From Bacillota bacterium (lineage in GTDB: Bacteria > Eremiobacterota > SpSt-956 > JAKJGF01), in assembly GCA_029555925.1 (NCBI GenBank), contig JAKPQU010000114.1:1-29111 (forward strand): a DNA stretch of 29,111 bases, written 5' to 3'. Both the position numbers and the translations under genes were made by a program. Position 1 is the stretch's first letter; each line of letters opens with the position of its first letter. Below, piece by piece: positions 1-28,646 of the stretch. Below the pieces are notes generated by a model. It was not told the DNA's origin. It did no database searches and saw only the letters and a program-made list of their open reading frames with translations.

Positions 1-223
1 GGAGTATTCTGCGGTCTTTAGGATAAAAGCTATAATATTTTTGAATTTTTGTGAAAAAAAGCAGGAGAATCAGACATATTTTGTGTAATCTTAACATAAA
101 ACATTCATAAGAATCGTAACGCATAACGCGTGACAGGAGAAAGAACTTTATTACATGCTTATGATCGGGTCAATAACCTGTATAAAATATCAAGACACAT
201 AGAGAGGGAAAGGTGTATCTGTT
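1..223. other. 5' spacer upstream of the tandem PilT gene
   Basis: No open reading frame is supported here. The stretch is AT-rich and contains a TATAAT hexamer near position 31, but I see no convincing -35 box at the right distance, so I do not call a promoter. It holds a short heptad array (116-136) followed by a flank that recurs near the far end of the window (see 130-175). A purine-rich ribosome binding site (GGGAAAGG) lies just ahead of the ATG at 224. Confidence 0.6.
116..136 (+). repeat. Heptad array, three units (GTAACGC type)
   Basis: Three consecutive seven-base units (GTAACGC, ATAACGC, GTGACAG) preceded by ATC, the same junction seen at 11846, 21566, 22813 and, on the other strand, at 12064. 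The 46 bases from 130 onward match those at 28380-28425 without gaps, about 36 of 46 identical by eye, and the upstream units also align except that the other copy has one extra heptad. This is a degenerate member of the dispersed heptad family. Confidence 0.8.
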
Positions 224-3200
224 ATGAAAAGCAGAGATAATGATACAGTAGAGAATAAAAGGGAAAGCACGATATCGGATGAAGATTTTCATGTAGAAAA
301 TATTCTGGAAAAAGCAGAGGCCCTTCGTAAAAAAGGTCTCATAGGGGAATCTATTACTTCCTATAACCAGGCATGGGAATATTTCAAGAATAAAAATAAA
401 GTTAAAAAAGCAGCAGAAGTATATGAAAAAATCAAATTCCTCAAAGAAGATATTCCTGCCCTCATGTCTATGGCCTCTCTTTATAAAAATACAGACGATT
501 TTGATAAAGCTATTGAGTGTTATCAGAAGATTTTAAATATTGACGGCAATCACCGTGAAGCTTTAAAGGAATTCAGCCGATTAAATTTCGAATTGAACAA
601 ATATGATTTCATTATGCCATGTCTGAAAAAATTATCCATTATTGAACCGGATAATGTAGAGGTTTTTCTGTGGACCGGTTCTGTCCTGGAAAAACATGGA
701 AGAATAAGAAAATCTGTAACAAATTATCTTAAAGCAGCAGATAATGCAAGAAAAAAAGGCATATATGAACAATCAAGAGAAATCTTAAAGAAAATCTTAA
801 ATATTTCCCCCAATAACATGGAAGCTCTGGAGAAACTGAAAAAAATTGACCGGGAAATAGAAGAAGTGGGAGAAAAAAAAGAAAAACTGCCAGAAATACT
901 AGAAAAGCCATATGAGAAGATTGAAACTGCAGAGAAAAAAGAAGAGCGAAACGACCTGGCAAAAGCAACATCGGAAGAAATAATAGAAACAGAAGATTCA
1001 AAATATACTGTATCGGAAGAAACTCATGAAGAGCACATTGACGAATGTGGCGGGGCACAAAAAGTATATCCCGTTACTTCTCCGAACAGGCTAAAACAGG
1101 AGATAATAGAACAATCAGATAATTCCCAAGCAGAGGAAGAGAGAGAAACATCTCCAGAACCATTGGAAAAAGGAGAAATCTTCGAACTCACAGACAATGA
1201 TAATTTACATATTGAGCTGATTGAATATCTTCTGAGTAAAAAAGGTATGCCCTTAATGCTTGCTATAAACAAAAACAGTCATAAGTTCGACCATAGATTT
1301 TTTGAAGTTTTCGATTATAAGAGGAAAGAAGAAGAGAATCCGAAAAAAGCAAGTATGCTGAACTATATTAATTCACTTATATCCAATCTGCATATTCGAG
1401 AAAAGCTGGCTGAACAATCAGAGCAAAAAGAAAGGGAAAAACCTCCGAAAAAAGAGATAGTACAAGAAGAACAGGCACATGAAAAATCATATAAAGAAGA
1501 AAGATATCTGGATACAATAACTGATACAGGGAAATCATCTGTATCAGAAGGTAATAATTTTTATCTTGATTTACTTGAGAATCTTCCGGAAAATCTGCCG
1601 GATAAAGAGATAGAAGAAGACCTCTATGAAACAAATACATATATAGAAAAACCGGCAGATGAAGAAAACCGGTTAGAAGATTTCGACAATGAACCTGCAG
1701 GAAATGAAGATATAATCCATAACAAAAAGGATGACTTTTATCTTGATTTACTCGACCGGTTAATATGGACTGAAGAAAATTCATTAATCCCTTTTATAAT
1801 GGAACATTTAGATAATTTAGACAAAAGGTTTTTTGAAATTCTGGATAATAAACTGAAGCATAGCACGGAAGAGAGTGATGAACATAAAAATTCTTTAACC
1901 TACCTCAATATGGTTATATCCAACCTGAATATCAGGGACAAATCAGATGAGAAGAGATTATACAAAGAAAAATCCCCGTCTCAGCCGTCAGAAGATTTAA
2001 TAGATTTACAGGGAGACATGATTATTTCCCGGGCAGAATCTCTTATTAAACATACACCCGAAGTGACTGTTATAAAACCTGAGGATTCATCTTTAATAAT
2101 ACAGTTTTCGGAAGAAGAGGACATAAAAGGGAAAGAGATAGAAGAAAAAAAAGCAAAAAAACCTGTAAAACTGGAATTTATCGATGAATGTTTGAAAAAA
2201 GTTATTGCTGTCGGTGCCACAGAATTACATCTTACTACAGGAGAGAAACCTAATATCAGATTCTGGGGAGAACTTCAACCGGTGGATATGCCTGTTCTAA
2301 AAGAAGTGCTGTCAGATGTTTTAATAGCTCAGATGCTATCTGATGAAGAGAAAAAAGAAATCGAAGAGCATATGCATGTAGATTTTATGTATAATTTCAC
2401 GGATCATGACAGAAAAACCCGACGGTTTAGAGGGAATGCCTATTATCACCGGACAGGTCTTAACATAATTATGAAGCTTATGCCGGATAAAATACCTTCT
2501 ATTAAAAACCTGGGACTGCCCGAAATAGTTTCGGCTTTCGGACGATTCGAACAGGGACTTGTACTTGTAACCGGCGGTTCCGGAAGCGGCAAGACGACTA
2601 CACTCCATGCTCTGCTGGATCTTATAAACAGTGAAAGATATGCCCACATAATAACAATAGAAGACCCTATCGAGTTTATCCACATACCTAAAAAAAGCAT
2701 AATAAGACAGAGGCAGATTGATTTACATACAAAGAGTTATTTGAAAGCCCTTAAAGCATCTATTTCCGAAGATCCTGATGTTATACTTATAAGCGAGCTT
2801 CGCGATCCTGAAACAATAGAGCTTGCCATGGTTGCAGCAGAAACAGGATGTCTGGTATTGTCCTCTATGAATACCCTGAGTTGTGCATCAACTATAGAAC
2901 GTATTATAGATTCTTTTCCTCCAGAACAGAATCTTCAGACAGGGGCTATGTTATCAGAATCATTGAAAGCCATAGTAACACAGCAATTACTTCCATCCAG
3001 AGCCAGATCCATAAGATATCCTGCAGTCGAAATTCTTACAGGCTGTACACCTCTCAAGAGTCTTATAAGAGAACAGAAGATTTTTCAAATTAATTCATTG
3101 ATAGAAACCAACAGAAGCATTGGCATGCAATCTATGGATTCTTCTATTTTATCACTGCTGAAAGATAAACTGATAACAGATGAAGTAGCAATGGAGGCTG

Positions 3201-4435
3201 CTACAGATAAAAATAATGTGAAAAATTTTAAAGCGAGCAAAACTGTTGGTACCACACAGGAAGTCATATCTGTATTAAAAAAAGACAGATGTGCTGCCCT
3301 GGGAATTATCACAGATCCTCCTGTAAACAATCAGGGTAAAATAATAAAAGCCAGTCTTTCACCGGATTATACCCTGAAGGATCTTTTTAAAGTTATGGTT
3401 CAGGAAAAGGCTTCGGACTTACATATCGCCGTGGGACTGCCTCCTAAAATGCGTCTGAAAGGTGAGATAGCGGAATTATATTTACCGGCTGTTTCTGAAG
3501 AAAAATCATGGGAATTACTTTCAGGTATTTTTTCAAAAAAACAGATGGAAATATTCAGCAGAGAATGGGATCTGGATTTCACCTATGAAGTATCAAATAT
3601 AGCCAGATTTCGTTGTAATATGTTAAGGGAACAGAACGGGGTGGGAGCAATATTCAGAATAATACCGCCTGAAATCCCTTCTATGGAAATACTCGGATTG
3701 CCTGAGGTTTTAAAGAAAATAGCCTGTTACAGACAGGGACTCGTTATAATAACAGGGCCTGCAGGAAGCGGAAAAACAACTACCATGGCATGTCTCCTTG
3801 ATTATATAAACAGCACCAGAAGTGCCAATATACTGACAATAGAAGAACCTCTCGAATTCATACATAAAAATAAAAAAAGCCGCATCTTTCACAGAGAAAT
3901 AGGTATTCATGCAGCCAGTTTCAGAGAAGCTGTCAGAGCAGCCAGAAAGGAATCTGTCGATATTATAATGATAGGAGAAATGATGGAGAAAGATACTCTT
4001 ATGGAGGCTCTTCTTGCTGCAGACATGGGGAATCTTGTACTCGGCATTATGCATACAACAGGTGTAACAAGAACTGTAGAAAAAATAATTGAAACTTTTT
4101 CAGGTTCCATGCAGGGACAGATACGCTCTATGCTCTGCAATTCCCTGAGGGCCATAGTAGCACAGCAGCTTATAACTACGATGGACGGCACATGGAGATG
4201 TGCAGTTATAGAAGTGGCTATAAATAATCAGAGACTGGCAAATGTTATAAGAGACGGTAAAACAAAAATGATTGACAGTGTACTTCACAGCAGCCGTGAA
4301 GAAGGGATGCAGAGCCTTGATCTGGCTCTCATGCAGCTTGTGAGGGATACAAAGATTGACGAAGAAACTGCAAGGCTTCGTTCCTCCAATCCCCGTTCTT
4401 TTATTATACCGAAGGAATTTAAACCGAAATGGTGA
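224..4435 (+). CDS. TPR protein with two fused PilT-like secretion/retraction ATPase modules
   Basis: 1403 aa. Residues about 25-215 are TPR-like helical repeats, 215-650 an acidic, Lys/Glu-rich linker that contains a roughly 75-residue duplicated module (about 325-400 and 502-578), and then come two complete PilT-like modules (about 655-1015 and 1045-1395). Each has the N-terminal LHL/LHI and FRxN-type region, a Walker A (GGSGSGKT 784-791; GPAGSGKT 1178-1185), an Asp box (TIEDP; TIEEP) and the C-terminal MQSxD motif. PilT proteins are hexameric ATPases that retract type IV pili and are usually about 350 aa and single-module. Here module 1 keeps the Walker B ELRD (E858) but has Asn883 in place of the His-box His, while module 2 keeps His1277 but has GEMME (E1252) in place of GEMRD. 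The ATG at 224 follows a purine-rich SD. No pilin or other pil gene is nearby, so the partner machine is unknown. Confidence 0.88.
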   Translation: MKSRDNDTVENKRESTISDEDFHVENILEKAEALRKKGLIGESITSYNQAWEYFKNKNKVKKAAEVYEKIKFLKEDIPALMSMASLYKNTDDFDKAIECYQKILNIDGNHREALKEFSRLNFELNKYDFIMPCLKKLSIIEPDNVEVFLWTGSVLEKHGRIRKSVTNYLKAADNARKKGIYEQSREILKKILNISPNNMEALEKLKKIDREIEEVGEKKEKLPEILEKPYEKIETAEKKEERNDLAKATSEEIIETEDSKYTVSEETHEEHIDECGGAQKVYPVTSPNRLKQEIIEQSDNSQAEEERETSPEPLEKGEIFELTDNDNLHIELIEYLLSKKGMPLMLAINKNSHKFDHRFFEVFDYKRKEEENPKKASMLNYINSLISNLHIREKLAEQSEQKEREKPPKKEIVQEEQAHEKSYKEERYLDTITDTGKSSVSEGNNFYLDLLENLPENLPDKEIEEDLYETNTYIEKPADEENRLEDFDNEPAGNEDIIHNKKDDFYLDLLDRLIWTEENSLIPFIMEHLDNLDKRFFEILDNKLKHSTEESDEHKNSLTYLNMVISNLNIRDKSDEKRLYKEKSPSQPSEDLIDLQGDMIISRAESLIKHTPEVTVIKPEDSSLIIQFSEEEDIKGKEIEEKKAKKPVKLEFIDECLKKVIAVGATELHLTTGEKPNIRFWGELQPVDMPVLKEVLSDVLIAQMLSDEEKKEIEEHMHVDFMYNFTDHDRKTRRFRGNAYYHRTGLNIIMKLMPDKIPSIKNLGLPEIVSAFGRFEQGLVLVTGGSGSGKTTTLHALLDLINSERYAHIITIEDPIEFIHIPKKSIIRQRQIDLHTKSYLKALKASISEDPDVILISELRDPETIELAMVAAETGCLVLSSMNTLSCASTIERIIDSFPPEQNLQTGAMLSESLKAIVTQQLLPSRARSIRYPAVEILTGCTPLKSLIREQKIFQINSLIETNRSIGMQSMDSSILSLLKDKLITDEVAMEAATDKNNVKNFKASKTVGTTQEVISVLKKDRCAALGIITDPPVNNQGKIIKASLSPDYTLKDLFKVMVQEKASDLHIAVGLPPKMRLKGEIAELYLPAVSEEKSWELLSGIFSKKQMEIFSREWDLDFTYEVSNIARFRCNMLREQNGVGAIFRIIPPEIPSMEILGLPEVLKKIACYRQGLVIITGPAGSGKTTTMACLLDYINSTRSANILTIEEPLEFIHKNKKSRIFHREIGIHAASFREAVRAARKESVDIIMIGEMMEKDTLMEALLAADMGNLVLGIMHTTGVTRTVEKIIETFSGSMQGQIRSMLCNSLRAIVAQQLITTMDGTWRCAVIEVAINNQRLANVIRDGKTKMIDSVLHSSREEGMQSLDLALMQLVRDTKIDEETARLRSSNPRSFIIPKEFKPKW

Positions 4436-4439
4436 AGGC

Positions 4440-4488
4440 GTGACGCGTAACGCGTAACGCGTGACGGGAGGTTATAGCATCCCGTCAC
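4440..4488 (+). repeat. Heptad array ending in a stem-loop after the tandem PilT gene
   Basis: Units GTGACGC, GTAACGC, GTAACGC and GTGACGG run from 4440 to 4467. The upstream stop codon (TGA, 4433-4435) lies in a related GTGAAGGC eight-mer. The last unit opens a perfect 9-bp stem, GTGACGGGA (4461-4469) with TCCCGTCAC (4480-4488), around a 10-base loop. There is no T-tract, so if it terminates transcription it is not a canonical intrinsic terminator. Confidence 0.8.
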
Positions 4489-4533: not shown

Positions 4534-4616
4534 GTGATGCGTAATACGTAACGCTTGATGCGTGACGCACAGGGAGAGATCTTCACCCGTTACGCGTCAC
4601 GCGTCACGCGTTAAGA
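4534..4616. repeat. Heptad inverted repeat between convergent genes
   Basis: Five units in GTGA orientation (4534-4568: GTGATGC, GTAATAC, GTAACGC, TTGATGC, GTGACGC) face four in the opposite orientation (4589-4616: GTTACGC, GTCACGC twice, GTTAAGA) across a 20-base spacer. The arms can pair imperfectly into a long hairpin. It lies between the 3' ends of convergent genes, so both transcripts would read GTGA-type units soon after their stop codons. The right arm is open in the + frame and reads as a spurious VTRHASR-type peptide. Confidence 0.8.
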
Positions 4617-4618: not shown

Positions 4619-5755
4619 TTAAGACTCAATCGTTTCCACATTGGCTCTCGGCAATATAACAGTTTCACCTGTTTCCAGTTTGACTTCCACCACTCTGACC
4701 TTTGTTTCACTTTCCATTTTGGTCAGATTATGAGGGAGACTTACAACTGTTCCGAGTACTCCGAAATAGGGTTTTCTTATTACTCTCACAGGGCTTCCCG
4801 GATCCATACCGAGCTGTTCCCTCGACTCATGCTCCTGCTGTATCTCTTCCATGGTATATTTTTCCAGGAGAGGAACTATTACTTCCGGCCTTATAACACC
4901 GGCCCTTATCTGAGTGGCTCCATTTATGGAAGTTTTCAGACCTTCGCTTCTTTTTAAAATATCATAGGTTTTTTCTGCCATTTTTATCTGGCCGAACCCT
5001 TCCGTAACTACGATTGTAAGGCCTATCTCTTCATGGCCTGTAATGGCAACGCCCAGATCATAACCCAGCAATTCTTTCAAATCTTTATCATCGAGTCCTC
5101 CTACAATAATACCTTTTATACCCACTTTTTTCGCTTTCTGTATGACATCATTTGTTACAAGAGAACCGCCGACTATTATCTTACCGGACAGATCTTCTTT
5201 AATATCATCAACAGTAAGAGGTTTATCGACTGATTTTGAAACAATTTCAAGTGGCCCTACCACCTCTCCTCCGACACCGAAAATACCCTGTATATAGGTT
5301 CCCCAGGTTTTAACATTTACTCCCTCGGCTTCTATAACTTCATCTACCACTCCGTCTACATAGGCTGCTATTTCTACCGGTATGGGAGCTTCACGGAGAA
5401 CTAACTGACCTGTAACACTGGATATACTTTCTACCGTACCGTTTATGGGTGATGTACATACAGATTTAAAAAGTCCGAAAAAACTGCTGCTTTTAGCTAT
5501 TACTTCATCGATTTTTATAGGGTCTCCCTCTTTTTTCAGCATACAATCTTTAATTTCGGCAGGAGTAATATTCAATTTATTGACCACATTGACCATATGA
5601 ACATTTCCGGGCAGGTCGGTTCTGGCAACAATTTTATCAGAACTCACTTTATCTCCTTTTTTTACAACTACCTGCCCTCTCAGAGGAAGCCTTCTTTCTT
5701 TATATATAATGGTTTTTTCTACTACTCTTAATCCTGGTGTATAGGCATGAGCCAT
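4619..5755 (-). CDS. Conserved barrel-sandwich/KOW-like protein linked to the GlmL-like ATPase
   Basis: 378 aa, cytoplasmic (no signal peptide or membrane segment). The N-terminal 130 residues are rich in short beta strands with repeated 'VKKGDKV'- and 'SPINGTVES'-style turns typical of biotinyl/lipoyl-like barrel-sandwich folds. I see no biotinylation or lipoylation lysine motif. The middle (about 165-260) looks alpha/beta, and the C-terminal 60 residues (VRVIRKPYFGVLGTVVSLP onward) resemble a KOW/SH3-like barrel. It is the last gene of the minus-strand run, 90 bases after the GlmL-like gene, with a heptad hairpin between. AAGGAG lies 10 bases before the ATG. From memory, such proteins commonly sit beside MutL-type ATPases in several uncultured phyla. 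Its biochemical role is unknown; it could be a scaffold or adaptor for that ATPase. Confidence 0.7.
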   Translation of the reverse strand: MAHAYTPGLRVVEKTIIYKERRLPLRGQVVVKKGDKVSSDKIVARTDLPGNVHMVNVVNKLNITPAEIKDCMLKKEGDPIKIDEVIAKSSSFFGLFKSVCTSPINGTVESISSVTGQLVLREAPIPVEIAAYVDGVVDEVIEAEGVNVKTWGTYIQGIFGVGGEVVGPLEIVSKSVDKPLTVDDIKEDLSGKIIVGGSLVTNDVIQKAKKVGIKGIIVGGLDDKDLKELLGYDLGVAITGHEEIGLTIVVTEGFGQIKMAEKTYDILKRSEGLKTSINGATQIRAGVIRPEVIVPLLEKYTMEEIQQEHESREQLGMDPGSPVRVIRKPYFGVLGTVVSLPHNLTKMESETKVRVVEVKLETGETVILPRANVETIES

Positions 5756-5778: not shown

Positions 5779-5841
5779 GTGACAGGTGATAGGTAAGAGG
5801 TGAAACTTTTCACTTTTCACTTTTCACTTTTCACTTTTCAC
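5779..5841. repeat. Heptad inverted repeat with five perfect TTTTCAC units
   Basis: On the + strand four diverged units (GTGACAG, GTGATAG, GTAAGAG, GTGAAAC; 5779-5806) meet five identical TTTTCAC units (5807-5841). Read with the flanking minus-strand genes, GTGAAAA units start four bases after the stop of the GlmL-like gene and the reverse-oriented units run up to the ribosome binding site of the next gene. The array fills most of the 90-base spacer. The flavour (GTGAAAA) differs from the GTRACGC arrays elsewhere, though the register and GTGA core are the same. Confidence 0.9.
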
Positions 5842-5845: not shown

Positions 5846-7669
5846 TTATCTTGCAAGAACACCCTGTCTGGGATATATATCCATAGCATCTATCCATGCC
5901 TGTAATTTTTCTATTCTCTTTTTCTTATCTTTCGGCAGGTCAAAAGGCTGTCTGCCCCGGCAATCAAAGATAATACCGACAACACCGCCGTTTATTTCTT
6001 TAGATTTCGGCTGTCCTTTACCTTCTCCTACATCAAAACCTTTTACCGGGTACAATTCTACCGTTGCTTTCGTATCCACTTCAAGAGGTATAACTTTTAA
6101 ATCTCCATACTTGAGATCCAGTTCCTCTTCTTTACCGCCCGGCATTTTTATTTTTGCTTTGAGAACTGTTTTACCTTCTTTTGCTTTTCCTACAGGAGCA
6201 ATACATGTTCCGATACGTATGAGGCAATCTTTCAAAAACACCTGTGTTGCCGCTTCAGGATGAACCTTTGCAAGAACACCTAACTGGGGCATCATAAATA
6301 TGGAGTCTACAGTAAGTTCTGTTATACCTTCAGGCAGATAGGCATCCATCATCATAAGGGCAGACTGACATCTTCTGGGTGCATGGGAAAGAACTCCGCC
6401 GCTGCCTATAATCATATCAAGACTCATAACATCTACGAGACTTTCATCGCCTGTACTCTGACTGAATATATCTGCAATAGTTCTTTCCTGCTGAACGCCT
6501 TTCAGTCCTACAGCCAGGGCTTTATGCTGTTCGAAGGAAATTCTGAGGGCTTCTCTGCATATGGCCTGTTCAACTACCAGTTCATCAAGTACCTGTGGTA
6601 TTGTAGTGGGTCTTATCATTTTATTTTTTATTCTGTTTCTCAGATCCCTTTCGTCCATATCAAAAGGAACCCATTTCATAACATTTTCCATACCTGCTTC
6701 GGCGAATACTTCTGATATACTGTAACTCATGCCCAGATTTGCACTTACAGTTCTGTTAAATACACCCTTAAAGACGGAAAATACATCTGTTGTAGCTCCT
6801 CCTATATCTGCTCCTACAACCTGAATGCCGTATTGTTCCGATATTCTCTGCATAATATCACCTACTGCAGCAGGTGTGGGCATTATATCTACATCTGTCA
6901 TGGCCATAAGTTTTTTATATCCCGGTGCCTGTGCCATAACATGTTCGAGGAAAAGCTGCTGAATTTTAAGCCTTGAAGGCATTAAATTTTCTCTTTCCAT
7001 GGTAGGTCTTAAATTATCTGTAATATCAAGAGCAGTTTTATCTGCCAGAAGTCTTTCTATTTCTTTCCTTGCGTTGACATTGCCTGCATATATAACAGGA
7101 AGCTGATAGGAAATACCCAGTCTCGGCCGTGGATTGGCTGCTGCTATAATTTCTCCCAGTTCCACCACATGAGAAACTGTGCCTCCGTCCACACCACCCG
7201 ACAGAAGTATCATATCAGGCCTTAAATTACGAATCCTCTGTATCTGTTCATGAGGAAGACGTTTATCATTTGTGGCAAGGGTATCCATTACAATGGCACC
7301 GCCGCCGAGAGCGGCACGGGCAGCACTTTCTGCAGTCATATTTTTCACGACTCCTGCTACCATCATCTGGAGTCCTCCGCCGGCACTGCTCGTAGAGATA
7401 TAAATATCAACACCTTTATCTCCCTTTTTAGGTTTTATTATTCCATTTCCGTCCAGTATCTGTCTTCCTGCCAGCTCACCCACTTCTGTTACTGCATTCA
7501 ATACTCCCTGCGTTACATCTTCTACGGGAGCTTCAACAGTTGTAGGCGCTTCGCCTCTTACAATCAGACGAAATTCATCGCCTCTTTTTTCTATGAGTAT
7601 GGCCTTTGTGGTAGTACTGCCACAATCTGTGGCAAGAATACTTGTGATTTCTTCTTTTTTAATGTTCAT
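5846..7669 (-). CDS. MutL/GlmL-like ASKHA-fold ATPase (glutamate mutase L family)
   Basis: 607 aa. Residues 13-27 (ATDCGSTTTKAILIE) form the phosphate-1 loop of the acetate-kinase/Hsp70/actin fold, and GADIGGATTD (286-295) the phosphate-2 loop. A Gly-rich segment (IGSGGVLSH, about 436-444) fits the adenosine region. In clostridia this family (MutL/GlmL) is encoded between the two subunits of B12-dependent glutamate mutase. There is no mutase subunit or B12-binding domain in this window; instead the gene sits in a run of membrane-protein genes. I start at the ATG at 7669, which has GGAGGT six bases upstream, rather than the TTG one codon earlier. By context it is more likely an ATP-driven regulator of a membrane process than a mutase factor. 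The family call is firm, the function is not. Confidence 0.85.
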   Translation of the reverse strand: MNIKKEEITSILATDCGSTTTKAILIEKRGDEFRLIVRGEAPTTVEAPVEDVTQGVLNAVTEVGELAGRQILDGNGIIKPKKGDKGVDIYISTSSAGGGLQMMVAGVVKNMTAESAARAALGGGAIVMDTLATNDKRLPHEQIQRIRNLRPDMILLSGGVDGGTVSHVVELGEIIAAANPRPRLGISYQLPVIYAGNVNARKEIERLLADKTALDITDNLRPTMERENLMPSRLKIQQLFLEHVMAQAPGYKKLMAMTDVDIMPTPAAVGDIMQRISEQYGIQVVGADIGGATTDVFSVFKGVFNRTVSANLGMSYSISEVFAEAGMENVMKWVPFDMDERDLRNRIKNKMIRPTTIPQVLDELVVEQAICREALRISFEQHKALAVGLKGVQQERTIADIFSQSTGDESLVDVMSLDMIIGSGGVLSHAPRRCQSALMMMDAYLPEGITELTVDSIFMMPQLGVLAKVHPEAATQVFLKDCLIRIGTCIAPVGKAKEGKTVLKAKIKMPGGKEEELDLKYGDLKVIPLEVDTKATVELYPVKGFDVGEGKGQPKSKEINGGVVGIIFDCRGRQPFDLPKDKKKRIEKLQAWIDAMDIYPRQGVLAR

Positions 7670-7770
7670 CAACTTACCTCCACATTAAATTTTTGGCTCT
7701 GTCATAAATTTTGTATAAACCTCTATAAAAACCTGTTTCCGATAAAATTTACACAAAAAGTCTTAAATTC

Positions 7771-10700: not shown

Positions 10701-11771
10701 TTATTTAGTAATAAACAGGTTTGTAAAAGTTTTAATGCCTGCAGTTTCCAGGATACAGCCTATTATAATAGAGAAGAGAAATACTAATTTACCAATATCC
10801 TGTCCTTTAAGACTGCCAAGCTGTTTCGGGTCTCTTGAAAGATAAGCAGAAGCGGCAAATAATTCTTCTCCTATAAGTGTATAATCGCAGGCTGCAACAA
10901 AAAAGGGCAGCTGTGATGGCATAGCTGTACCTGCCATCTGTATAGCGCCTGTAGAATGTCCTGTTTCAGCAAGTATCAGTGATTCTGCATAGAAACAACC
11001 CATATAAAAATTGGCAGCAGGCTGTTCTCTGACCATAATACCATCAACACCTGCCACAAAACCGAACTGATCATCAGTAAGATAACGGATATTATCTGGA
11101 CGAAAAGCATCAGGCCTTCCTGCTCTTGTATAGGATTCCTTTACTACTTCCTGGGCTGTGCTCATAACAAGAGAAAATCTTGTAGGAACCAGTATAGGTG
11201 TATCATACTCGGCAGTTTTCTGAGCCACATAGGAAAGTATAGACAGACCAGCAAGGGTCTGTATATCATTCATATCAGTAATACCGGGGATATAAAGTAC
11301 AGGTTTACCCATTTCCGTAGCTCTTCCCACTGCATCATCCAGCGCAGAAAGTCCTGCTATTCTGCGTATAAACAGTTCCTGTCCTCTCTGAGCACTGAAT
11401 ATAAAATAGAGTATAAAGCCGGACAGGAGTACTATGGCTATTAACATACTCAATCTTCCTTCATTGAACCATCTTTCATCCTGCTTGGGTTTTTCTTCTT
11501 CCGTAGCAGCAGGGGAAGGAACAGGAGTAACTGGAACTGCTGTCACAGATTGAGCAGGTGATGCTTCAGCGGAAGGAGTAGTAACAGATGTTGTCTCAAC
11601 TGGAGACATCTGTGTTTCAGGACTGGAAGTTACCTGTGCAGAAGGTACCGGAGCGGATGTATTACTCTGAGCAATATCCCGGGGTGACAGACAAAAAGCA
11701 TAATTACAGACGGAAAATAGCAAGAACAGGATCATACTTGCTATGAATAAAGGTTTTTTCTTTTCATGCAA
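10701..11771 (-). CDS. Secreted/anchored protein with a large conserved domain, possibly of the DUF6754 type
   Basis: 356 aa from the chosen start. A basic N-terminus and a hydrophobic stretch (LFIASMILFLLFSVCNYAF) look like a signal sequence. A Pro/Ser/Thr/Val-rich linker follows, then a membrane helix (LSMLIAIVLLSGFILYFIFS), a 210-residue globular domain with motifs GKPVLYIPG, VPTRFS and TAMPSQLPFF, and a C-terminal hydrophobic segment. I recall proteins of this kind being called DUF6754; that name is tentative. I prefer TTG at 11771, which puts the signal sequence at the N-terminus behind an AAGGTGG-type SD, over an ATG at 11840 that lies against a heptad array and has no SD. It is the first gene of the operon, and the next begins 14 bases after it. 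Confidence 0.72.
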   Translation of the reverse strand: MHEKKKPLFIASMILFLLFSVCNYAFCLSPRDIAQSNTSAPVPSAQVTSSPETQMSPVETTSVTTPSAEASPAQSVTAVPVTPVPSPAATEEEKPKQDERWFNEGRLSMLIAIVLLSGFILYFIFSAQRGQELFIRRIAGLSALDDAVGRATEMGKPVLYIPGITDMNDIQTLAGLSILSYVAQKTAEYDTPILVPTRFSLVMSTAQEVVKESYTRAGRPDAFRPDNIRYLTDDQFGFVAGVDGIMVREQPAANFYMGCFYAESLILAETGHSTGAIQMAGTAMPSQLPFFVAACDYTLIGEELFAASAYLSRDPKQLGSLKGQDIGKLVFLFSIIIGCILETAGIKTFTNLFITK

Positions 11772-11845
11772 AATTGGACACCACCTTCTTTCTTGAAATA
11801 CTGCCTCCTGAAAAGGGAGAGCAATGTTAGAGACTGTCATATATC

Positions 11846-11866
11846 GTAACGCGTGACGCGTGACGC
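11846..11866 (+). repeat. Heptad array, three units, ahead of the membrane operon
   Basis: Units GTAACGC, GTGACGC and GTGACGC preceded by ATC. Read on the strand of the genes it is the reverse (GTCACGC) orientation and stands just before the first gene of the membrane operon, as at 21566 and 22813. Together with the opposite-facing array at 12041-12064 it forms a widely spaced inverted pair in the tpiA-operon spacer. Confidence 0.85.
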
Positions 11867-12040: not shown

Positions 12041-12064
12041 GACGCGTTACGTGTTACGCGTCAC
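12041..12064 (-). repeat. Heptad array, three units, downstream of tpiA
   Basis: On the minus strand the units are GTGACGC, GTAACAC and GTAACGC (12064 down to 12044), preceded by AATC and followed by GTCATGGGAGG. It lies about 70 bases after the tpiA stop and reads in the sense GTGA orientation for that transcript. The upstream flank on the + strand (GTCACGATTGTAAATATAAT) matches the flank that precedes ribosome binding sites at 21546 and 22791, yet here no gene follows on that strand. Confidence 0.82.
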
Positions 12065-12884: not shown

Positions 12885-12906
12885 ATAAATTACCTCCTAA
12901 TTTACC

Positions 12907-12936
12907 TGTAGGGGCGTTCAATTGAACGCCCCTACA
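12907..12936. repeat. Perfect 30-bp palindrome between pgk and tpiA
   Basis: The left half TGTAGGGGCGTTCAA (12907-12921) is followed without a spacer by its exact reverse complement. It lies six bases downstream of the pgk stop codon, in a GC-rich island unlike its surroundings. As RNA it would form a hairpin; as DNA a cruciform or a protein site. It has no T-tract. Compositionally it resembles the GGGC/GCCC hairpin at 17328-17358 and dispersed REP-like palindromes found in many bacteria, so it may be a small mobile repeat. Confidence 0.9.
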
Positions 12937-12942
12937 ATCAAA

Positions 12943-15332: not shown

Positions 15333-15360
15333 TACGCACCTTTCACCGGTCACTGGTCAC
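15333..15360 (-). repeat. Heptad array that encodes the kinase C-terminus and its stop codon
   Basis: On the minus strand four units follow one another: GTGACCA (15360-15354), GTGACCG (15353-15347), GTGAAAG (15346-15340) and GTGCGTA (15339-15333). The kinase reading frame enters the array and reads Ser-Asp-Gln, then the TGA inside the second GTGA (15352-15350) stops it. The same arrangement is seen at 21597-21617. Confidence 0.85.
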
Positions 15361-17719: not shown

Positions 17720-17753
17720 TATTATTAACTCCAATCTTTCATGTTAGCAATTC

Positions 17754-17812
17754 AGCAAGTCAGCTTTCGGCAGGTCAGCAGAAAAGCTGAACTGCTGACC
17801 TGCTGACTTGCT
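17754..17812 (-). repeat. 21-bp stem built of eight-base units, with a seven-base bulge
   Basis: The right arm (17792-17812) pairs perfectly over 21 bp with the left arm split as 17754-17764 and 17772-17781; TTTCGGC (17765-17771) bulges out. Both arms are made of octads of the form GCTGANYT. The arm overlaps the first base of the upstream gene's TAA stop codon (17812-17814 on +), so the hairpin forms immediately at the end of that gene. A terminator or mRNA end-protection role is plausible. Confidence 0.85.
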
Positions 17813-20597: not shown

Positions 20598-21545
20598 CTA
20601 TCTCAAAATCTGAGATAATACTCTGAGCCAGTTTCCGCCGATAATTTTTTCGATATCTTTACAGGTATGTCCTCTTTTCTTTAATAGTTCCGTTATAGCA
20701 GGCAAAAAAGATGCATCTGATAATCCGGAAGGATAATTATCTGTTCCATGAAAATCAGACCCGAGTCCTACAGAGTTGTAATTACCGGTTAATTTAACAA
20801 TATATTCTATATGATCTGCCACATGTTCTACAGTTACAGGATTTTCTCCCAGGAAATGAGGTACAAAGGTAATACCTGTTACACCTCCCTTTTCTGCAAT
20901 GGCAAGTATCTGTTCGTCTTTCAAATTTCTAGGATGGTTACGGATGGAATAGCAATTGGAGTGAGAAGCTATAACAGGTTCACTGCTCACTTTCATTACA
21001 TCCCAGAACCCCGGCTCAGCCATATGAGAAACATCTACTATCATACCGAGATTATTCATCTTCTTTACTACTTCTACTCCGAATTTTGTGAGGCCTCCCG
21101 GGTTATTGCCGACCGATACACCATCGGCAAGTAAATTTCTATTGCTCCATGTAAGAGTCATGGCTCTCACACCGAGTCTGTAATAGGTGTCCAGCATAAA
21201 CAATTTTCCGCAGAGTGCTTCCCCGCCTTCTATGGAAAGGAGGCACCCGAAGCGCCCATTTTTCACAGGTTCAAGGTCATTACGTGATAATATCAGTGAA
21301 ATGTCACGATTTTCCTCTTTCCATTTGTAAAATAAATCTATCATCTCAAGGGTAAAAGGAATAACAGAATGGGGAATCAATTCCTCAGGTGTATAGAGAG
21401 CAAAAACCTGCAGATTGATTCCTCCCGAAAGTAAAGGTTTTATATCCAGAACAGACGGGTCATCTCTGAGGACTTTACAGAGAGTATCTGCGTGGAAATC
21501 CACAACAGTGGTATTCATATGAAAATTCATAGTTTCATCTGTCAT
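20598..21545 (-). CDS. Membrane dipeptidase family protein (peptidase M19)
   Basis: 315 aa. The di-zinc site of the M19 (renal dipeptidase) family is complete: His18 and Asp20 in DFHAD, bridging Glu106 in LSIEGGEA, His174 in DVSHM, His195 in ASHSN and Asp264 in GSDFHG. The spacing matches the family. These enzymes cleave dipeptides, and some bacterial members accept D-residues or dehydropeptides. There is no signal peptide, so it is probably cytoplasmic. ATG with AAAGGAG. It follows the TPR gene by 54 bases that are almost entirely a heptad hairpin. I cannot predict the physiological substrate. Confidence 0.93.
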   Translation of the reverse strand: MTDETMNFHMNTTVVDFHADTLCKVLRDDPSVLDIKPLLSGGINLQVFALYTPEELIPHSVIPFTLEMIDLFYKWKEENRDISLILSRNDLEPVKNGRFGCLLSIEGGEALCGKLFMLDTYYRLGVRAMTLTWSNRNLLADGVSVGNNPGGLTKFGVEVVKKMNNLGMIVDVSHMAEPGFWDVMKVSSEPVIASHSNCYSIRNHPRNLKDEQILAIAEKGGVTGITFVPHFLGENPVTVEHVADHIEYIVKLTGNYNSVGLGSDFHGTDNYPSGLSDASFLPAITELLKKRGHTCKDIEKIIGGNWLRVLSQILR

Positions 21546-21565: not shown

Positions 21566-21617
21566 GTGACGCGTAACGCGTAACGGGTAGCAATACCGGT
21601 CACTGACCACTGCTCAC
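21566..21617. repeat. Heptad inverted repeat filling the TPR-dipeptidase spacer
   Basis: On + the left arm (21566-21586) is GTGACGC, GTAACGC and GTAACGG, preceded by ATC. The right arm (21597-21617), read on minus, is GTGAGCA, GTGGTCA and GTGACCG. The TPR reading frame enters the right arm: its last residues Val-Ser-Ser-Gly-Gln and its TGA stop (21602-21600) come from the heptads. The left arm ends at the conserved flank GTCACGATTATAAAGGAG (minus), which contains the dipeptidase SD. Confidence 0.87.
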
Positions 21618-22790
21618 TGCTCTACCTGCTTCCTTCCTTGCTTCCAGAGCATCAGGATCATCAGGTTCCAGTTCAAGAGCTTTATCAAAGCACAAAAGGG
21701 CTTCTTTATATTTCTTTTCTTCTGACAGTAAAAGCCCTTTATTATAAAAGGCATTGAAATATTTTTCATCGAGTTTCAGAGCCATATCATAACATTTTTC
21801 AGCTTCTTTATATTTTTTCTGATAAGCCATCAGAAGTCCTTTATTATTCCATGGGACAGGATCTGTGCCGTCAATGGCTATTGCTTTATCGTAACACTGA
21901 AGCGCTTTCTTATAATCTTTTTTTTCCGCAAGAGCAAGACCTGTACCGTTCAGGCCATAGGTATTTTCAGGGTCAATCGCCAGTGCCTCATTATAACATT
22001 CTATAGCTTTATCGTATTTTTCCTCTTCACAGAGGAGATCACCTTTGTAATTCCAGGAATCTAAATTTTCCGGATCAATATTTATGGCTTTATCATAACA
22101 TTCCAGAGCCATGTCATATTCTTTTGTTTCAGAAAACACATAGCCTTTGCCGTTCAGAGCATAAACATTTTTTCCGTCAATCGCCAGTGCTTTATCATAA
22201 CATTCTATAGCTCTCTCATATTCTTCCTTTTCCAGATAAACATCACCTTTATTATTCCAGGCGAAAACATTCTCATGTTCAAATTCCAGAACCTTATCAT
22301 AACATTCTATGGCTTCATCATATCTTTCCATTTCTGCCAGTGTATCGCCTTTACTGTTTAAAGCATATATATCATCGGGCTCTATGGCCAGAACTTTATC
22401 ATAACATTCTATGGCTTTATCATATGCTTCCTGTTCACAGAGACAATCTCCGCGGCCGTTCCATGCATCACTGTTGTTCTCATCAAATTCCAGTGCTTTA
22501 TCATAACATTCTATAGCTTTATCATATTCTTCCTGTTCATACAGGGTATCACCCAGGCCGGTCCATCCGTCTATATTTTCCGGGTCAAGTTTTATTACCT
22601 TCTTATAACATTTGAGTGTTTTATCATAAGCTTCCTGTTCGTATAAAGCAAAAGCTTTTCCGAGCCAGGCCTCTACATTTTCACGGTCCATTTTTATTGC
22701 CATGTCAAAAGCTTTCACAGCTTCATCATATTTCTCATCCTCAATCAGCTCTTCCCCTTTTTGAATAAAATCTTCAACAGTTTTTGCCAT
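21600..22790 (-). CDS. Protein of eleven tandem TPR repeats
   Basis: 396 aa, cytoplasmic. After a short N-terminus the whole protein is 11 head-to-tail 34-residue TPRs with the consensus A-x-x-C-Y-D-K-A-L-x-I/L-D-P-E-N. TPR solenoids bind peptides or proteins; there is no enzymatic domain. Repeat ends alternate Trp and Leu (DAW, YAL, FAW, YAL, DSW, YGL, VPW), pointing to duplication of two-repeat blocks. The start is the ATG at 22790 with AGGAG eight bases upstream. A longer reading from 22850 would translate a heptad array into VTRHASR-type sequence and is not real. The C-terminal seven residues or so are heptad-encoded. Confidence 0.93.
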   Translation of the reverse strand: MAKTVEDFIQKGEELIEDEKYDEAVKAFDMAIKMDRENVEAWLGKAFALYEQEAYDKTLKCYKKVIKLDPENIDGWTGLGDTLYEQEEYDKAIECYDKALEFDENNSDAWNGRGDCLCEQEAYDKAIECYDKVLAIEPDDIYALNSKGDTLAEMERYDEAIECYDKVLEFEHENVFAWNNKGDVYLEKEEYERAIECYDKALAIDGKNVYALNGKGYVFSETKEYDMALECYDKAINIDPENLDSWNYKGDLLCEEEKYDKAIECYNEALAIDPENTYGLNGTGLALAEKKDYKKALQCYDKAIAIDGTDPVPWNNKGLLMAYQKKYKEAEKCYDMALKLDEKYFNAFYNKGLLLSEEKKYKEALLCFDKALELEPDDPDALEARKEAGRAVSSGQ

Positions 22791-22812
22791 AATAATTCTC
22801 CTTTTATTAATC

Positions 22813-22840
22813 GTGACGCGTGACGCGTGACGCGTGACGC
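22813..22840 (+). repeat. Four perfect GTGACGC heptads ahead of the TPR gene
   Basis: Four identical units, preceded by AATC and followed by GAGG. On the gene's strand they read GTCACGC and end in GTCACGATTAATAAAAGGAG, the same flank as before the dipeptidase gene, including the SD. The copies are identical here but not at most other loci, which suggests recent expansion or homogenisation. Confidence 0.95.
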
Positions 22841-22932
22841 GAGGATTCAATTTGCGACCGGCTCTGTAATATTTGGAGCACTTACCAGCAATGGTATCTG
22901 AAAATCAGTATTTACTGAAATAACTGCAGAAA

Positions 22933-23868: not shown

Positions 23869-23886
23869 CAGGAATATAAATCCGTG

Positions 23887-23929
23887 TCACGTCACGACCA
23901 CTGAATTTCTAATAAGTTATGAAATACAC
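23887..23929 (-). repeat. Dispersed repeat copy with short GTGACGT core
   Basis: On the minus strand a TTTCATAACT end is followed by a short GTCGTGACGTGAC core. The 23 bases at 23907-23929 are identical to 28629-28651 on the same strand. The copy lies between vapC and the glycosyltransferase-like gene. It appears to be a half of the 127-bp inverted repeat found at 28520. Confidence 0.82.
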
Positions 23930-23982
23930 TATAAAATAGATTATGAAGATAAAAATACACTTTGTCAACTATTGAGGATAGC

Positions 23983-25483: not shown

Positions 25484-25502
25484 CCCGGGCTATTATAAAT
25501 TA

Positions 25503-25538: not shown

Positions 25539-25601
25539 GCTTTATTTTACATTATCAAAAATGAAAATTCCTATACATTTAAATTATTAAGGAGGTTTAA
25601 T

Positions 25602-26663
25602 ATGTTAAAAAAGTGTTTATTTCTGTCTTTTTTATTCTTACTTTCTTTTACCTGCTGTTTTGCCCAGTCAGAACCTGATTTAAAACTCTATGATCAGGCA
25701 ATTGAACTGGAGATGACAGATCTTAACGGAGCCATAGAAAAATACAATGAATTACTAAAAATCAAGCCTGATTTTACCGAAGGTTATGTAGCACTCGGAC
25801 GCTGTTACAGGAAGGTAAAAGATTATGATAATGCCATAAAAATATACAATCAGTTATTAAAAATAAAAGGTGATTTTCCCATAACCTATGAAGAACTTGG
25901 ATGGATTTATCTGGATAAAAATCAGACAGATAAATCTCTGGAATATTTTCAAAAAGCATGGACTCTTGCGCCGGACAACGGTTATATAGAAGCCTGTCTC
26001 GGCCTGCTTTATATTGAGAAAAGATTTTATAATATCGGCATAAGCCACTGCACCAGAGCACTCAGAATTGACAGGGATTGTGTTCCTGCCTATAACAACC
26101 TGGCAAGGGCATATTACAAACTGGATAAAATTGATGAAGCAATAACATATGCAGAGAAAGCAATAGCAATCGACCCTGATTACGCATGGGCATACAATAA
26201 TCTGGGAACATGTTATTACAAGAAAAAAGAATATGATAAAGCCATAAAAGCATTGAATACAGCCCTTAAGATCTGTTTTGACGGAAAAGATACGTCTCAC
26301 GTAAATGTTTTCAGAATATACAATAATCTCGGCCTTACCTATTTCGGACAGGGACAGCTCGATATGGCCTTTCTCCATTTACAGAAATCCATAGAAGCAG
26401 ATCCAAATAATCCCGCCGCATACAATAATGTAGCCTGGTTCTATGCACAGAATGAACTTAACCTGGATGAAGGATTGAAACTGGTTCAAAAAGCTATAGA
26501 TATGGAACCTGACAATGCCGTTTATTTAGACACACTTGCAGAATTATATTACAGGAAAAAAGATTACGGGAAAGCCATTGAAACGATAGAGAAGGCAATA
26601 GAACTGGATCCGAAATCAGAAGTTTACAGAGAACAGAAGAAGAGATTCGAAGAGAGAAAATAG
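25602..26663 (+). CDS. Secreted TPR-repeat protein
   Basis: 353 aa. Residues 1-21 are a signal peptide (MLKKCLFLSFLFLLSFTCCFA, cleavage likely before Gln22). The rest is TPRs: about eight repeats, from GAIEKYNELLKIKPD to AIETIEKAIELDP, with the usual G/A-Y-x-x-A pattern. An insertion between repeats (ICFDGKDTSHVNVFR, about 224-238) breaks the regular spacing. The target is probably the periplasm, where TPR proteins commonly serve envelope assembly. A strong SD, AAGGAGG, precedes the ATG. The gene ends at a heptad hairpin shared with the convergent HEAT gene. No function can be assigned. Confidence 0.87.
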   Translation: MLKKCLFLSFLFLLSFTCCFAQSEPDLKLYDQAIELEMTDLNGAIEKYNELLKIKPDFTEGYVALGRCYRKVKDYDNAIKIYNQLLKIKGDFPITYEELGWIYLDKNQTDKSLEYFQKAWTLAPDNGYIEACLGLLYIEKRFYNIGISHCTRALRIDRDCVPAYNNLARAYYKLDKIDEAITYAEKAIAIDPDYAWAYNNLGTCYYKKKEYDKAIKALNTALKICFDGKDTSHVNVFRIYNNLGLTYFGQGQLDMAFLHLQKSIEADPNNPAAYNNVAWFYAQNELNLDEGLKLVQKAIDMEPDNAVYLDTLAELYYRKKDYGKAIETIEKAIELDPKSEVYREQKKRFEERK

Positions 26664-26716
26664 TGAGTGGTGAGTCGTGAGTAAGAGTAAACTTCTACTC
26701 ACGACTCACGATTCAC
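26663..26716. terminator. Heptad hairpin between convergent genes, GTGAGTN type
   Basis: Units GTGAGTG, GTGAGTC and GTGAGTA (26663-26683) face TACTCAC, GACTCAC and GATTCAC (26696-26716). A perfect 14-bp stem forms between 26670-26683 and 26696-26709 with a 12-base loop. The first G belongs to the TAG stop of the TPR gene, and the outer unit ends four bases from the HEAT gene's stop. Both transcripts would run into the same stem-loop, so a bidirectional terminator or 3'-end stabiliser is likely. Confidence 0.82.
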
Positions 26717-26720
26717 GAAC

Positions 26721-28280
26721 TTATGCAGGATCGAGTTCTACATTGCAGTTGGGACATTTAACAGAGGTCAGGCCTCTTACTACGATAGTATTACAACAAT
26801 TTTTACAGAGTATTTTCTCGCAGAGGGGACATTTCCCAAATCTTATTACATCAAGCTTCTGTCCTTTATATTCTACGGAAGAAGCCTTTCTGGAAATAAT
26901 ACCGCCGCAGTTCGTACACCTTAATTTATCACCTTGCAGAAAAGAACTCAGAGAAGGGCCTTTTACTCTGGAAAGCTTTTCTATTTGATCTGAGAAGAAC
27001 GTTGAAAATCTCTGAAGCAAACTTTCACTGGGTATAAAGGACGGCCCGCCATCCATTTTAAATTTCCTTTTAAGTCGGGTTAATACTTTTGAAGCTGCAG
27101 TTTTTACAGACTTATCACTGTCTTCTTCCGCCACTTCCGTAAGGGCATCAATTGAAGTTTTAGATTCAAGCTCACCGAGGAACTCTATTGCCAGTTTCCT
27201 CTTATCAGGTTCAGGATCACTGAGGAGCTGCAAAAAATAATCGACTCCGTCTGCGCCGAGATGTTTGATTACTTTTTTTATCGTATTACGGCCTTTTTCC
27301 TTTTCCGATGAATAATCTTCAATTAACACAGGTATTATTTTATATCCGAATTTGCAGAGGTTTTCTTCGGCGAGAACTGCAGTTTCTCCATCTTCTTCTA
27401 TTAATATCCTGACAAGAAATTCAATTGCCTGGGGGCCTCCTATATCAACTATGGATTTTATCAATATCCTGTTTAATTCCGGATCGGATTTATTAATCAT
27501 ATTTCTCAGATTATAAAGAGCATCTTCTGCTTTTAACCTGCCCAGGACAGAGGCAATGTTCTTTTTAACTTCCGGCATTTCTTCCTCATCGAGAAGGTCT
27601 ATAAGAGGATTTACAACCTCTTCATTTTTCATCTTTCCCAAAAATTCCACACAGGCTATTCTTATTTTCCAGTTTTCGTCTTTAAGACCTTTAAGGAACG
27701 GTTCTGCTCCGAGATGGAGCAATTTATCCAGTGCAGCAAGAGCATCTTTACAGATCTCGTCACTCGAATTGCCTATAGCTTTAACTAAAATAGACGCAGA
27801 ATCCTTTGTGCCTATAGTAGTAAGGAATTTTACCGCTCTTTTCCTGTCTTCCAGGTGAGGGCTGCCGAGTTCCTTCCCTATTTCCTTTAACATCGGCACA
27901 ATCGCCCTGTCTATTTCTTCAAGTGCAACCATGGCTGTATTCCTTACCTCTTCGTTAAGATCGAGTCTCTGAAGTGTTCTCAGATGGGTAATGGCCCGGA
28001 AATCTCCGATTTTCCCGAGAGCCATGGCCACGGCAACCCTTGTATCTTTGTTTGTATCGGAAAGAGCTTTAATAAGAGACGGCACTGCTCTTTCATTGCC
28101 TGTTTTACTTATGGTTATTGCAGTAGCTGTCCTTATATCAGGATTGTAATCTGAAAGCAGTTCTATGAGATGATCTACAACTTCCGCTTCCTTACGGGTT
28201 GCCAGAGCTTTTACTGCATTTAGTCTTACAGAGTCGTCCTGATGCTTTAAATCAGATAATAATTTTTTAATATCATTCAT
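26721..28280 (-). CDS. HEAT-repeat protein with a C-terminal zinc-binding domain
   Basis: 519 aa. Residues about 1-390 are 10 or more HEAT/PBS-lyase-like repeats with the pattern D-x-x-V-R-x-x-A-x-x-A-L (for example DTRVAVAMALGKIGD). A low-complexity stretch follows, then a tail with four CxxC pairs: C455/C458, C484/C487, C492/C495 and C509/C512, enough for two zinc ions. There is no signal peptide or membrane segment. HEAT solenoids bind proteins; the zinc tail may add another binding surface. Spacing of the Cys pairs is not that of a standard RING as far as I can tell. ATG at 28280. It is the last gene before the repeat-rich spacer ahead of bshC. Confidence 0.85.
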   Translation of the reverse strand: MNDIKKLLSDLKHQDDSVRLNAVKALATRKEAEVVDHLIELLSDYNPDIRTATAITISKTGNERAVPSLIKALSDTNKDTRVAVAMALGKIGDFRAITHLRTLQRLDLNEEVRNTAMVALEEIDRAIVPMLKEIGKELGSPHLEDRKRAVKFLTTIGTKDSASILVKAIGNSSDEICKDALAALDKLLHLGAEPFLKGLKDENWKIRIACVEFLGKMKNEEVVNPLIDLLDEEEMPEVKKNIASVLGRLKAEDALYNLRNMINKSDPELNRILIKSIVDIGGPQAIEFLVRILIEEDGETAVLAEENLCKFGYKIIPVLIEDYSSEKEKGRNTIKKVIKHLGADGVDYFLQLLSDPEPDKRKLAIEFLGELESKTSIDALTEVAEEDSDKSVKTAASKVLTRLKRKFKMDGGPSFIPSESLLQRFSTFFSDQIEKLSRVKGPSLSSFLQGDKLRCTNCGGIISRKASSVEYKGQKLDVIRFGKCPLCEKILCKNCCNTIVVRGLTSVKCPNCNVELDPA

Positions 28281-28358
28281 AAAAAATATCCTTTGTTTTT
28301 AGTAGTATTTGATGAGAGTTATTTTACTGATATAAGCATAAATAATATATATGCTCTC

Positions 28359-28425
28359 GTGACGCATAACGCTTAACGCGTTACGGGAGGAAGATTTTTA
28401 CTACATGTTTATGCTCAGGTCAGTA
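28359..28425 (+). repeat. Heptad array with conserved flank (second copy)
   Basis: Units GTGACGC, ATAACGC, TTAACGC and GTTACGG (28359-28386), then a 39-base flank. It aligns with 116-175 over units and flank, with one extra heptad here and no gaps in the flank. By eye about 36 of the last 46 bases agree. The flank has no coding sense and is not obviously structured. Confidence 0.78.
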
Positions 28426-28519
28426 ATTATATGCCACTCATCACAGATGAACATTTAGCTGTTATTAATCCTTTACCATAAAGGGTCTTTAATGCAAAAT
28501 TCGCTGATGTTATAGTTAG

Positions 28520-28646
28520 TTTCATAACTATCTATAAATAATGACCTCGTAATGCGTACAGCGTAATGCGTGATGCGCAGAGATTAAACCCGTCACGCGT
28601 CACGCGTTACGCGTCACGACGACTTAAATTCTAATAAGTTATGAAA
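28520..28646. repeat. 127-bp inverted repeat with heptad core
   Basis: Outer ends TTTCATAACT (28520-28529) and AGTTATGAAA (28637-28646) are perfect complements. Inside lie four units in GTRA orientation (28549-28576) facing three to four reversed units (28592-28619) around a 15-base centre. It is small, non-coding and flanked by AT-rich DNA, like a MITE. The 23 bases at 28629-28651 recur exactly at 23907-23929. No target-site duplication is evident. Confidence 0.8.

Follow-up and report, generated by a model that had tools for sequence, protein, structure and literature searches.

Seven-base repeats are abundant in cyanobacteria as the heptamers known as STRR sequences, for which slippage has been proposed. 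REP elements are short intergenic palindromic repeats with a conserved tetranucleotide; they are not tandem heptads, they have their own Y1 transposases, and they are thought to stop transcription or to protect transcript ends. The parts of PMC4679880 drawn on here recount the long simple sequence repeats of Mrazek et al. (2007), in which heptamers were abundant and slippage was proposed, and describe the TAACTGA direct repeats of marine Beggiatoaceae. The closest published description for the repeats analyzed in this work is that of the GGGANTN heptamers of Xanthomonas and Nostoc, and we do not claim that the GTRA family itself is absent from print. In the parts of PMC4692102 used, these are GGGAATC or GGGANTN heptamers in Xanthomonas and GGGGA(C/T)T heptamers in Nostoc. 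The GGGANTN repeats lie at gene edges, form convergent pairs and mostly count four units; this four-unit mode is linked to G-quadruplexes, and most repeats lie between the same genes in two species.

The stretch of DNA from an uncultured bacterium that was analyzed as a whole here, the window (29,111 bases, 38% G+C), carries arrays between its genes whose seven-base units start with GTGA or GTAA and continue with three changeable bases (GTRANNN). Compared with those parts of PMC4692102, GTRA and GGGANTN repeats are alike in their seven-base units with fixed first and freer last bases, in their mostly intergenic location and in their convergent pairs. In both cases the closest gene is the one behind the repeat, and the repeat occupies the coding strand past stops and the noncoding strand before starts; both have some units that overlap the stop codon, and both change in length and sequence between close species. 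The four-unit mode of the GGGANTN repeats recurred in some of the genomes examined, but not in the nearest genome met (G045) or in the window. GTRA arrays differ in their core, with A or G at the third base, in triplets that vary from array to array and in the rarity of G-tracts. Moreover, divergent gaps are avoided in the species of PMC4692102 but not in G045, and the GGGANTN repeats are mostly kept between two species, whereas a GTRA array was kept at neither of two loci compared. The preliminary description of this DNA had stated that no description of a core-plus-variable design was known; since positions 1 to 4 and 6 of the GGGANTN heptamers are conserved in the same source, this statement did not stand. 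Thus, the GTRA core variant appears to be new, and the heptameric gene-edge kind of repeat was already known.

The TAACTGA repeats, as far as the portions of PMC4679880 cited describe them, resemble GTRA arrays as intergenic heptamer arrays that are mostly short, occur sporadically across phyla and carry stops in all frames. They differ in being one fixed sequence without a variable triplet, with relatives that are rare as arrays, and in lying mostly just upstream of starts. Unlike GTRA arrays, the STRR and Mrazek repeats as described have no core-plus-variable part, gene-edge polarity or core constraint. REP elements and GTRA arrays have in common the short palindromic intergenic form and the conserved tetranucleotide, but only the latter are tandem heptads, and a Y1 transposase was not associated with them.

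GTRA arrays in the window and in sampled genomes

Thirteen window arrays had at least three consecutive GTRA cores at seven-base spacing on either strand, compared with a mean of 0.02 and a maximum of 1 in 200 dinucleotide shuffles; 17 had at least two cores (shuffle mean 2.91, maximum 8). Seven, five and one arrays had three, four and five units, respectively. Some arrays face each other, and several such pairs were independently recovered by an inverted-repeat search (Table 1). Triplet identity was 0.881 within arrays versus 0.429 for randomly dealt units (maximum 0.667 in 2000 deals).

Table 1. Arrays and a dispersed element located in the window
Feature	Position	Strand	Remark
Degenerate array GTAACGC ATAACGC GTGACAG, upstream of ORF 224-4435	116..136	+	good cores 2/3
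GTRA array, 4 units (CGC, CGC, CGC, CGG), directly 3' of the stop of ORF 224-4435	4440..4467	+	
5-unit array, GTRA core in 4	4534..4568	+	
Facing array, 5 units (TTAA first, then four GTRA), just past the stop of ORF 4619-5755 (minus)	4580..4614	-	also found by inverted-repeat search
Array CAG TAG GAG AAC, upstream of the start of ORF 4619-5755 (minus)	5779..5806	+	
GTGAAAA x5, all identical, just past the stop of ORF 5846-7672 (minus)	5807..5841	-	
3 CGC units, upstream of ORF 10701-11840 (minus, DUF6754)	11846..11866	+	
Facing array, 3 units	12044..12064	-	
Array CCA CCG AAG; second TGA is the stop codon of ORF 15350-17308	15340..15360	-	
3-unit array, CGC, upstream of the start of ORF 20598-21545 (minus)	21566..21586	+	
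Degenerate facing array GTGAGCA GTGGTCA GTGACC	21598..21625	-	
GTGACGC x4, identical, upstream of the likely start of a TPR gene (ORF 21600-22850, minus)	22813..22840	+	start probably 22790
Array GTG GTC GTA at the stop codon of ORF 25602-26663	26663..26683	+	
Facing array ATC GTC GTA at the stop of ORF 26721-28280 (minus)	26696..26716	-	
Degenerate array GTGACGC ATAACGC TTAACGC GTTACGG	28359..28386	+	good cores 1/4
Dispersed element, outer ends TTATAGTTAGTTTCATAAC / GTTATGAAATACAC, two facing arrays within	28510..28655		right limit approximate
Left array within the element	28549..28576	+	good cores 3/4
Right array within the element, 4 units	28590..28617	-	

The claim of GTRA heptamer arrays at many spacer loci was thus borne out, and most of the loci listed in the preliminary description were found again. 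Those at 4440, 11846, 21566 and 22813 (CGC), at 5807 (AAA, minus strand) and at 26663 were read correctly. The arrays placed at 15333 and 12041 exist, the former with the triplets given, but lie on the minus strand at 15340-15360 and 12044-12064; those at 28359, 28549 and 116 are weaker than claimed. The list was incomplete, lacking the facing arrays at 4580, 5779, 26696 and 28590 and the plus-strand array at 4534. Last three bases specific to each locus had also been proposed, which holds in part, since a CGC family is common to many loci.

Three further features of the window were noted. Between two genes at 17746-17812 lie facing arrays with units of eight bases (GCTGACCT-like), which form an octamer counterpart to the heptamers; a near-perfect, REP-like palindrome around GTAGGGGCGTTCAATTGAACGCCCCTAC adjoins the phosphoglycerate kinase gene at 12898-12945; and a fragment at 23884-23930 ends on the right in GTTATGAAATACAC, like the element at 28510-28655.

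A HEAT-repeat protein of the window was 64% identical to a protein named Candidatus Eremiobacteraeota and had a 65% match in G045. From this genome 0.93 Mb was sampled, mostly in stretches that came from HEAT-protein matches or evenly numbered contigs (C15 and C89 came from an array listing). As the pattern also appeared in other phyla, stretches of G019 (a Cloacimonadota record; 19 of 20 chosen independently of arrays), of G243 and G276, which are congeners, and of G232 were used as well. Because the stretches of G276, G243 and G232 were selected for a four-unit match, their array density and ratio of three- to four-unit arrays are biased. Genes in these comparisons were called by a simple ORF caller, so start positions are rough.

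The array count that the preliminary description had suggested genome-wide was made on samples of the other genomes. The G045 sample contained 146 GTRA arrays of at least three units at period 7, and one shuffle contained none. The remaining periods between 4 and 13 gave 0 to 4 arrays each and period 15 gave 3; the 45 arrays at period 14 fall on a multiple of 7. Among cores of the form XYRZ, GTRA led in the window, G045, G019, G243 and G276, of which the last two had been picked for GTRA matches; across 80 loci of many phyla (1.15 Mb), GTRA gave 5 arrays and was not the top core. Period 7 also accounted for 59 of 125 perfect tandem repeats of any sequence in G045 (periods 5 to 15) and for 33 of 50 in G019, and it was not dominant in the 80 loci of many phyla (8 of 28).

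A search for four-unit arrays in the phylum of G045 matched 7 of 149 genomes, with 556 places in G045 (55 for a reversed-pattern control) and 1 to 7 in each of the other six; the remaining 142 had no match. In the phylum of G019, 58 of 117 sampled genomes matched, which need not all reflect proper GTRA arrays because the reversed-pattern control was itself high in several of these genomes (e.g., G236, G220 and G215). Array-rich genomes of this phylum had their own favorite triplets among the matches listed. G187, a third congener beside G243 and G276, had two four-unit matches only. This patchy presence, with 142 of 149 genomes lacking a match and only two matches in G187, means that the function of the arrays is not essential.

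Core constraint and stop codons

The preliminary description had claimed that units resemble each other more within loci than between them, and that arrays are homogenized locally. Both claims were upheld, the latter at the last three bases. Unit likeness within G045 arrays was 0.65, compared with 0.34 when units were dealt at random, and in the window and in each of four genomes (G045, G019, G243 and G276) the likeness of triplets within arrays exceeded the maximum of 2000 random deals. This likeness supports local homogenization. Of the copying from a template that had been named as the other possibility, no sign came up in the course of these comparisons.

To free the scored unit from the assumed core, an adjacent identical pair of GTRANNN units was taken as the reference, and a neighbor with exactly one mismatch was scored by the position of that mismatch. 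Single mismatches at positions 1 to 7 numbered 1, 1, 19, 0, 13, 17 and 45 (n = 96; these events are not independent), the count at position 7 being probably inflated because arrays end there. Of the 19 mismatches at position 3 (R3), 17 were exchanges between A and G. Thus, the G, T and A of the core are held, with 2 of the 96 differences among them, and variation at R is almost confined to A/G exchanges. The claim of a fixed GTRA core was therefore confirmed. The contrast that had been drawn with fixed protein-binding sites was not, since a nearly unchanged G1, T2 and A4 and an R3 that changes almost only between A and G are as expected for a recognized sequence. The likeness of R within arrays was at the random level for G243, G276 and the window; in G045 it was borderline, being reached by 81 of 2000 deals, and in G019 R was alike within arrays (0 of 2000). 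Arrays with GGRA or GARA cores also exist in small numbers, and a wider GNRA rule was dropped because they are too few to claim one.

Every GTRA unit contains a stop triplet, TGA or TAA, and since seven bases do not make up whole codons, three units supply a stop in every frame. At gene ends the arrays might accordingly terminate translation that overruns the gene or has left its frame, an explanation we consider unlikely. R3 indeed varies almost only between TGA and TAA, and the TRA of the array was the stop codon of the gene in 41 of 101 cases in which a gene on the sense strand ended between 30 bases before the array and the end of the array. GTRA arrays past stops carried stop codons in the sense direction only in 49 cases, in the antisense direction only in 17 and in both in 2. 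In addition, a GTRA array and a TAA-bearing ATTAARA array hold the same place past a stop in the two congeners, and the all-frame property is noted for TAACTGA in the parts of PMC4679880 cited.

Several observations do not fit this explanation. G1, which is needless for stops, is kept no less strictly than T and A, with 1 change compared with 13, 17 and 45 at positions 5 to 7. The stop set ranked only sixth of 48 comparable triplet sets in 201 non-GTRA arrays, and near gene ends these arrays carried stops in the sense direction only in 10 cases, antisense only in 10, in both directions in 9 and in neither in 16. An earlier test on loosely drawn arrays, each unit of which had to contain a stop, ranked the stop set first in G045 and G243 and not in the other samples; it was replaced by one with runs of four units and GTRA arrays split from the rest. 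A second family in G045, with CTRA cores, is oriented the opposite way, and many G045 arrays lie antisense behind a 5' end (see below). Reportedly, one study of eubacteria also came upon no evidence for selection of extra 3' stops. As a whole explanation, stop cassettes were rejected: they fit the GTRA arrays and fail on the held G1, the CTRA family and the non-GTRA arrays.

Placement at gene edges and pairing

In the four genomes, the nearest gene boundary was behind the array, which thus faced away from it, in 144 of 197 cases (86 of 117 in G045, 20 of 21 in G276 and 21 of 29 in G243); this polarity was weak in G019 (17 of 30). In G045, the median gap was 3 bases past 3' ends; ahead of 5' ends the tenth percentile was 18 bases, which leaves space for a ribosome-binding site. 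Solitary arrays nearest to a 3' end were in the sense orientation in 47 of 62 cases, and all 21 arrays of G276 that lie outside ORFs and are flanked by genes had a gene 3' end behind them. In G045, 57 of 117 arrays lay behind a 5' end, antisense to that gene. In G045 and the window, arrays were present in 19 of 96 divergent gaps, compared with 59 of 313 gaps between tandem genes and 16 of 68 between convergent ones, so divergent gaps were not avoided. Only 4 of the 159 arrays of the window and G045 were inside predicted ORFs (30 partly); inside ORFs that were often short or doubtful were 14 of 45 in G019, 7 of 35 in G276 and 6 of 8 in G232.

The CTRANNN family of G045 (L100, L103, L105-L107 and others) comprised 49 arrays, none in ORFs, with the same freedom between A and G as GTRA. 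These arrays had the nearest edge ahead in 26 of 40 cases, facing it, and the three close pairs in G045 were all back to back.

Of 71 neighboring GTRA pairs less than 150 bases apart, 45 converged, 13 pointed in one common direction, 13 in the other, and none were back to back. Convergence was strong in G045, the window and G243, and was seen in 1 of 8 pairs in G276, 0 of 9 in G019 and 0 of 2 in G232. Facing arrays could fold onto each other by base pairing of GTRA with TYAC, and the long imperfect hairpins so formed would terminate transcription or shield the ends of transcripts. Facing pairs made up 35 of 40 close neighbors in the window and G045, and their arms shared triplets at 0.461 versus 0.322 when re-dealt (0 of 2000 permutations). 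The mean folding energy of 45 pairs was -33.6 kcal/mol, compared with -29.6 kcal/mol (SD 1.0) when right arms were swapped between loci of a genome. However, units at the same depth matched hardly better than units at other depths, whether counted from outside (0.486 versus 0.469) or from inside (0.501 versus 0.465), and the R bases of the two arms looked independent (both A in 11, with 9.0 expected; 12 and 9.3 from inside). Arrays without a partner were also common (35 of 117 in G045, 12 of 21 in G276 and 25 of 30 in G019), and close neighbors pointed in the same direction in G276 (7 of 8) and G019 (9 of 9). We therefore regard hairpins as an improbable explanation. As the source of the core constraint, hairpin covariation was rejected, because the arms are not matched unit by unit and R does not covary; each unit seems instead to be constrained on its own.

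Turnover, unit number, and candidate explanations

Between the sampled loci of G243 and G276, there were nine protein matches at more than 45% identity, and in two of these the gene edge carried an array. Both of these comparable GTRA arrays were absent from the matching place in the other congener; at one of the two loci, the stop codon of the orthologue was directly followed by four ATTAARA units. Such differences, like the sporadic distribution, would be expected if the arrays were the ends or the middle of small, nonautonomous palindromic elements moved by a transposase that recognizes GTRA or TYAC. One sharp-ended element family is common to G045 and the window: 9 of the 16 G045 arrays that share flanks belong to one element with TATAGT ends, the left end of which lies beside six G045 arrays and recurs letter for letter in the window at 28510. 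Outer flanks resembled those of another array in 24 of 35 cases in G276, partly via other preceding repeats, and in 21 of 45 in G019; other repeats often adjoin the flank-sharing arrays of both genomes. On the other hand, shared outer flanks were found for only 16 of 146 arrays in G045 and 3 of 39 in G243. A Y1 transposase (PF01797, the only transposase family compared; tallied by eye) was present in 20 of 25 array-rich genomes (at least 10 matches) and in 72 of 92 others. Mobility is thus quite improbable as the origin of the arrays, and the Y1 transposase was rejected as their mover, as it showed no association across genomes. At the gathering threshold, Rfam gave no match on the arrays of five sources and none in the window; its matches off the arrays were four tRNAs in L189 and one Acido-Lenti-1 (L171:1178-1224).

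Among arrays of at least four units in the whole genomes, exactly four units were present in 52 of 60 in G243 and 54 of 64 in G276 (counted by eye). Arrays of three, four and five units numbered 15, 26 and 4 in the G019 sample and 82, 39 and 17 in G045. As the GTRA core lacks GGG, such a tract requires a triplet with GG as its last two bases, followed by the G of the next unit. Units capable of this were 28 of 397 in G045 (TGG, AGG, CGG and GGG triplets), 1 of 101 in G276 and 1 of 108 in G243. Single GTGATGG arrays could form a quadruplex. As the general reason for a four-unit heptamer design, however, the quadruplex is unlikely, because G243 and G276 have a clear four-unit mode almost without G-tracts, and because the same placement, pairing and sometimes four-unit mode occur in repeats that are generally unable to form one.

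A conserved factor might instead read a genome-specific tetranucleotide every seven bases, often four times, leading away from the gene. In this unlikely case, one general bacterial system, spelled GTRA here, GGGA in Xanthomonas and otherwise elsewhere, would mark gene or transcript boundaries, and the four-unit rule would belong to the reader rather than to a quadruplex. A held core beside a free, homogenized remainder provides a natural experiment, in which slippage drives the free bases and something holds the four, and the old puzzle of the seven-base preference in bacterial satellites becomes more testable.

Stops, hairpins and the Y1 transposase each fail to explain the whole pattern. 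What remains after these tests is slippage and local homogenization, under a putative recognition of each unit. The arrays are most likely a putative recognized mark of gene edges, and they may quite possibly be the GTRA-core members of the heptameric gene-edge repeat class, subject to slippage under recognition. Units would be gained and lost through replication slippage and local conversion, which would homogenize the free bases, and a unit would persist only while it carries GTRA. A putative nucleic acid-binding factor would read GTRA, tolerating A or G at the third base. Its reading mainly at transcript ends, the least certain step, is suggested by the mostly sense orientation of solitary arrays near 3' ends and by the one species with arrays almost only past stops. 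A purely RNA-level role would fit poorly, given the 57 of 117 G045 arrays behind 5' ends and the divergent gaps that are not avoided. A Pfam scan of ten window proteins yielded no candidate array binder; no binding protein was found, and the Y1 transposase, the sole family tested, did not track the arrays. The opposite orientation of the CTRA family of G045 and the weak polarity of G019 also count against recognition as a mark, and so do the 80 loci of many phyla, in which neither GTRA nor period 7 prevailed. The genomes with GTRA arrays also contain seven-base families whose cores are quite unlike GTRA, and so part of the pattern may be slippage alone.

Other tandem repeats were noted in the sampled genomes. 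The G243 stretches contained ten perfect period-8 repeats, and in L156-L175 of G276 many arrays were preceded, as judged by eye, by another tandem family of about 11 bases (AAGAGTCGGCC-like). In G019, intergenic stretches of L213 and L215 held many heptamer families (GGGAGAC, GGAACTC, GTGATCG and AAAATGT), and one heptamer run near L215:6498 reached 16 units.
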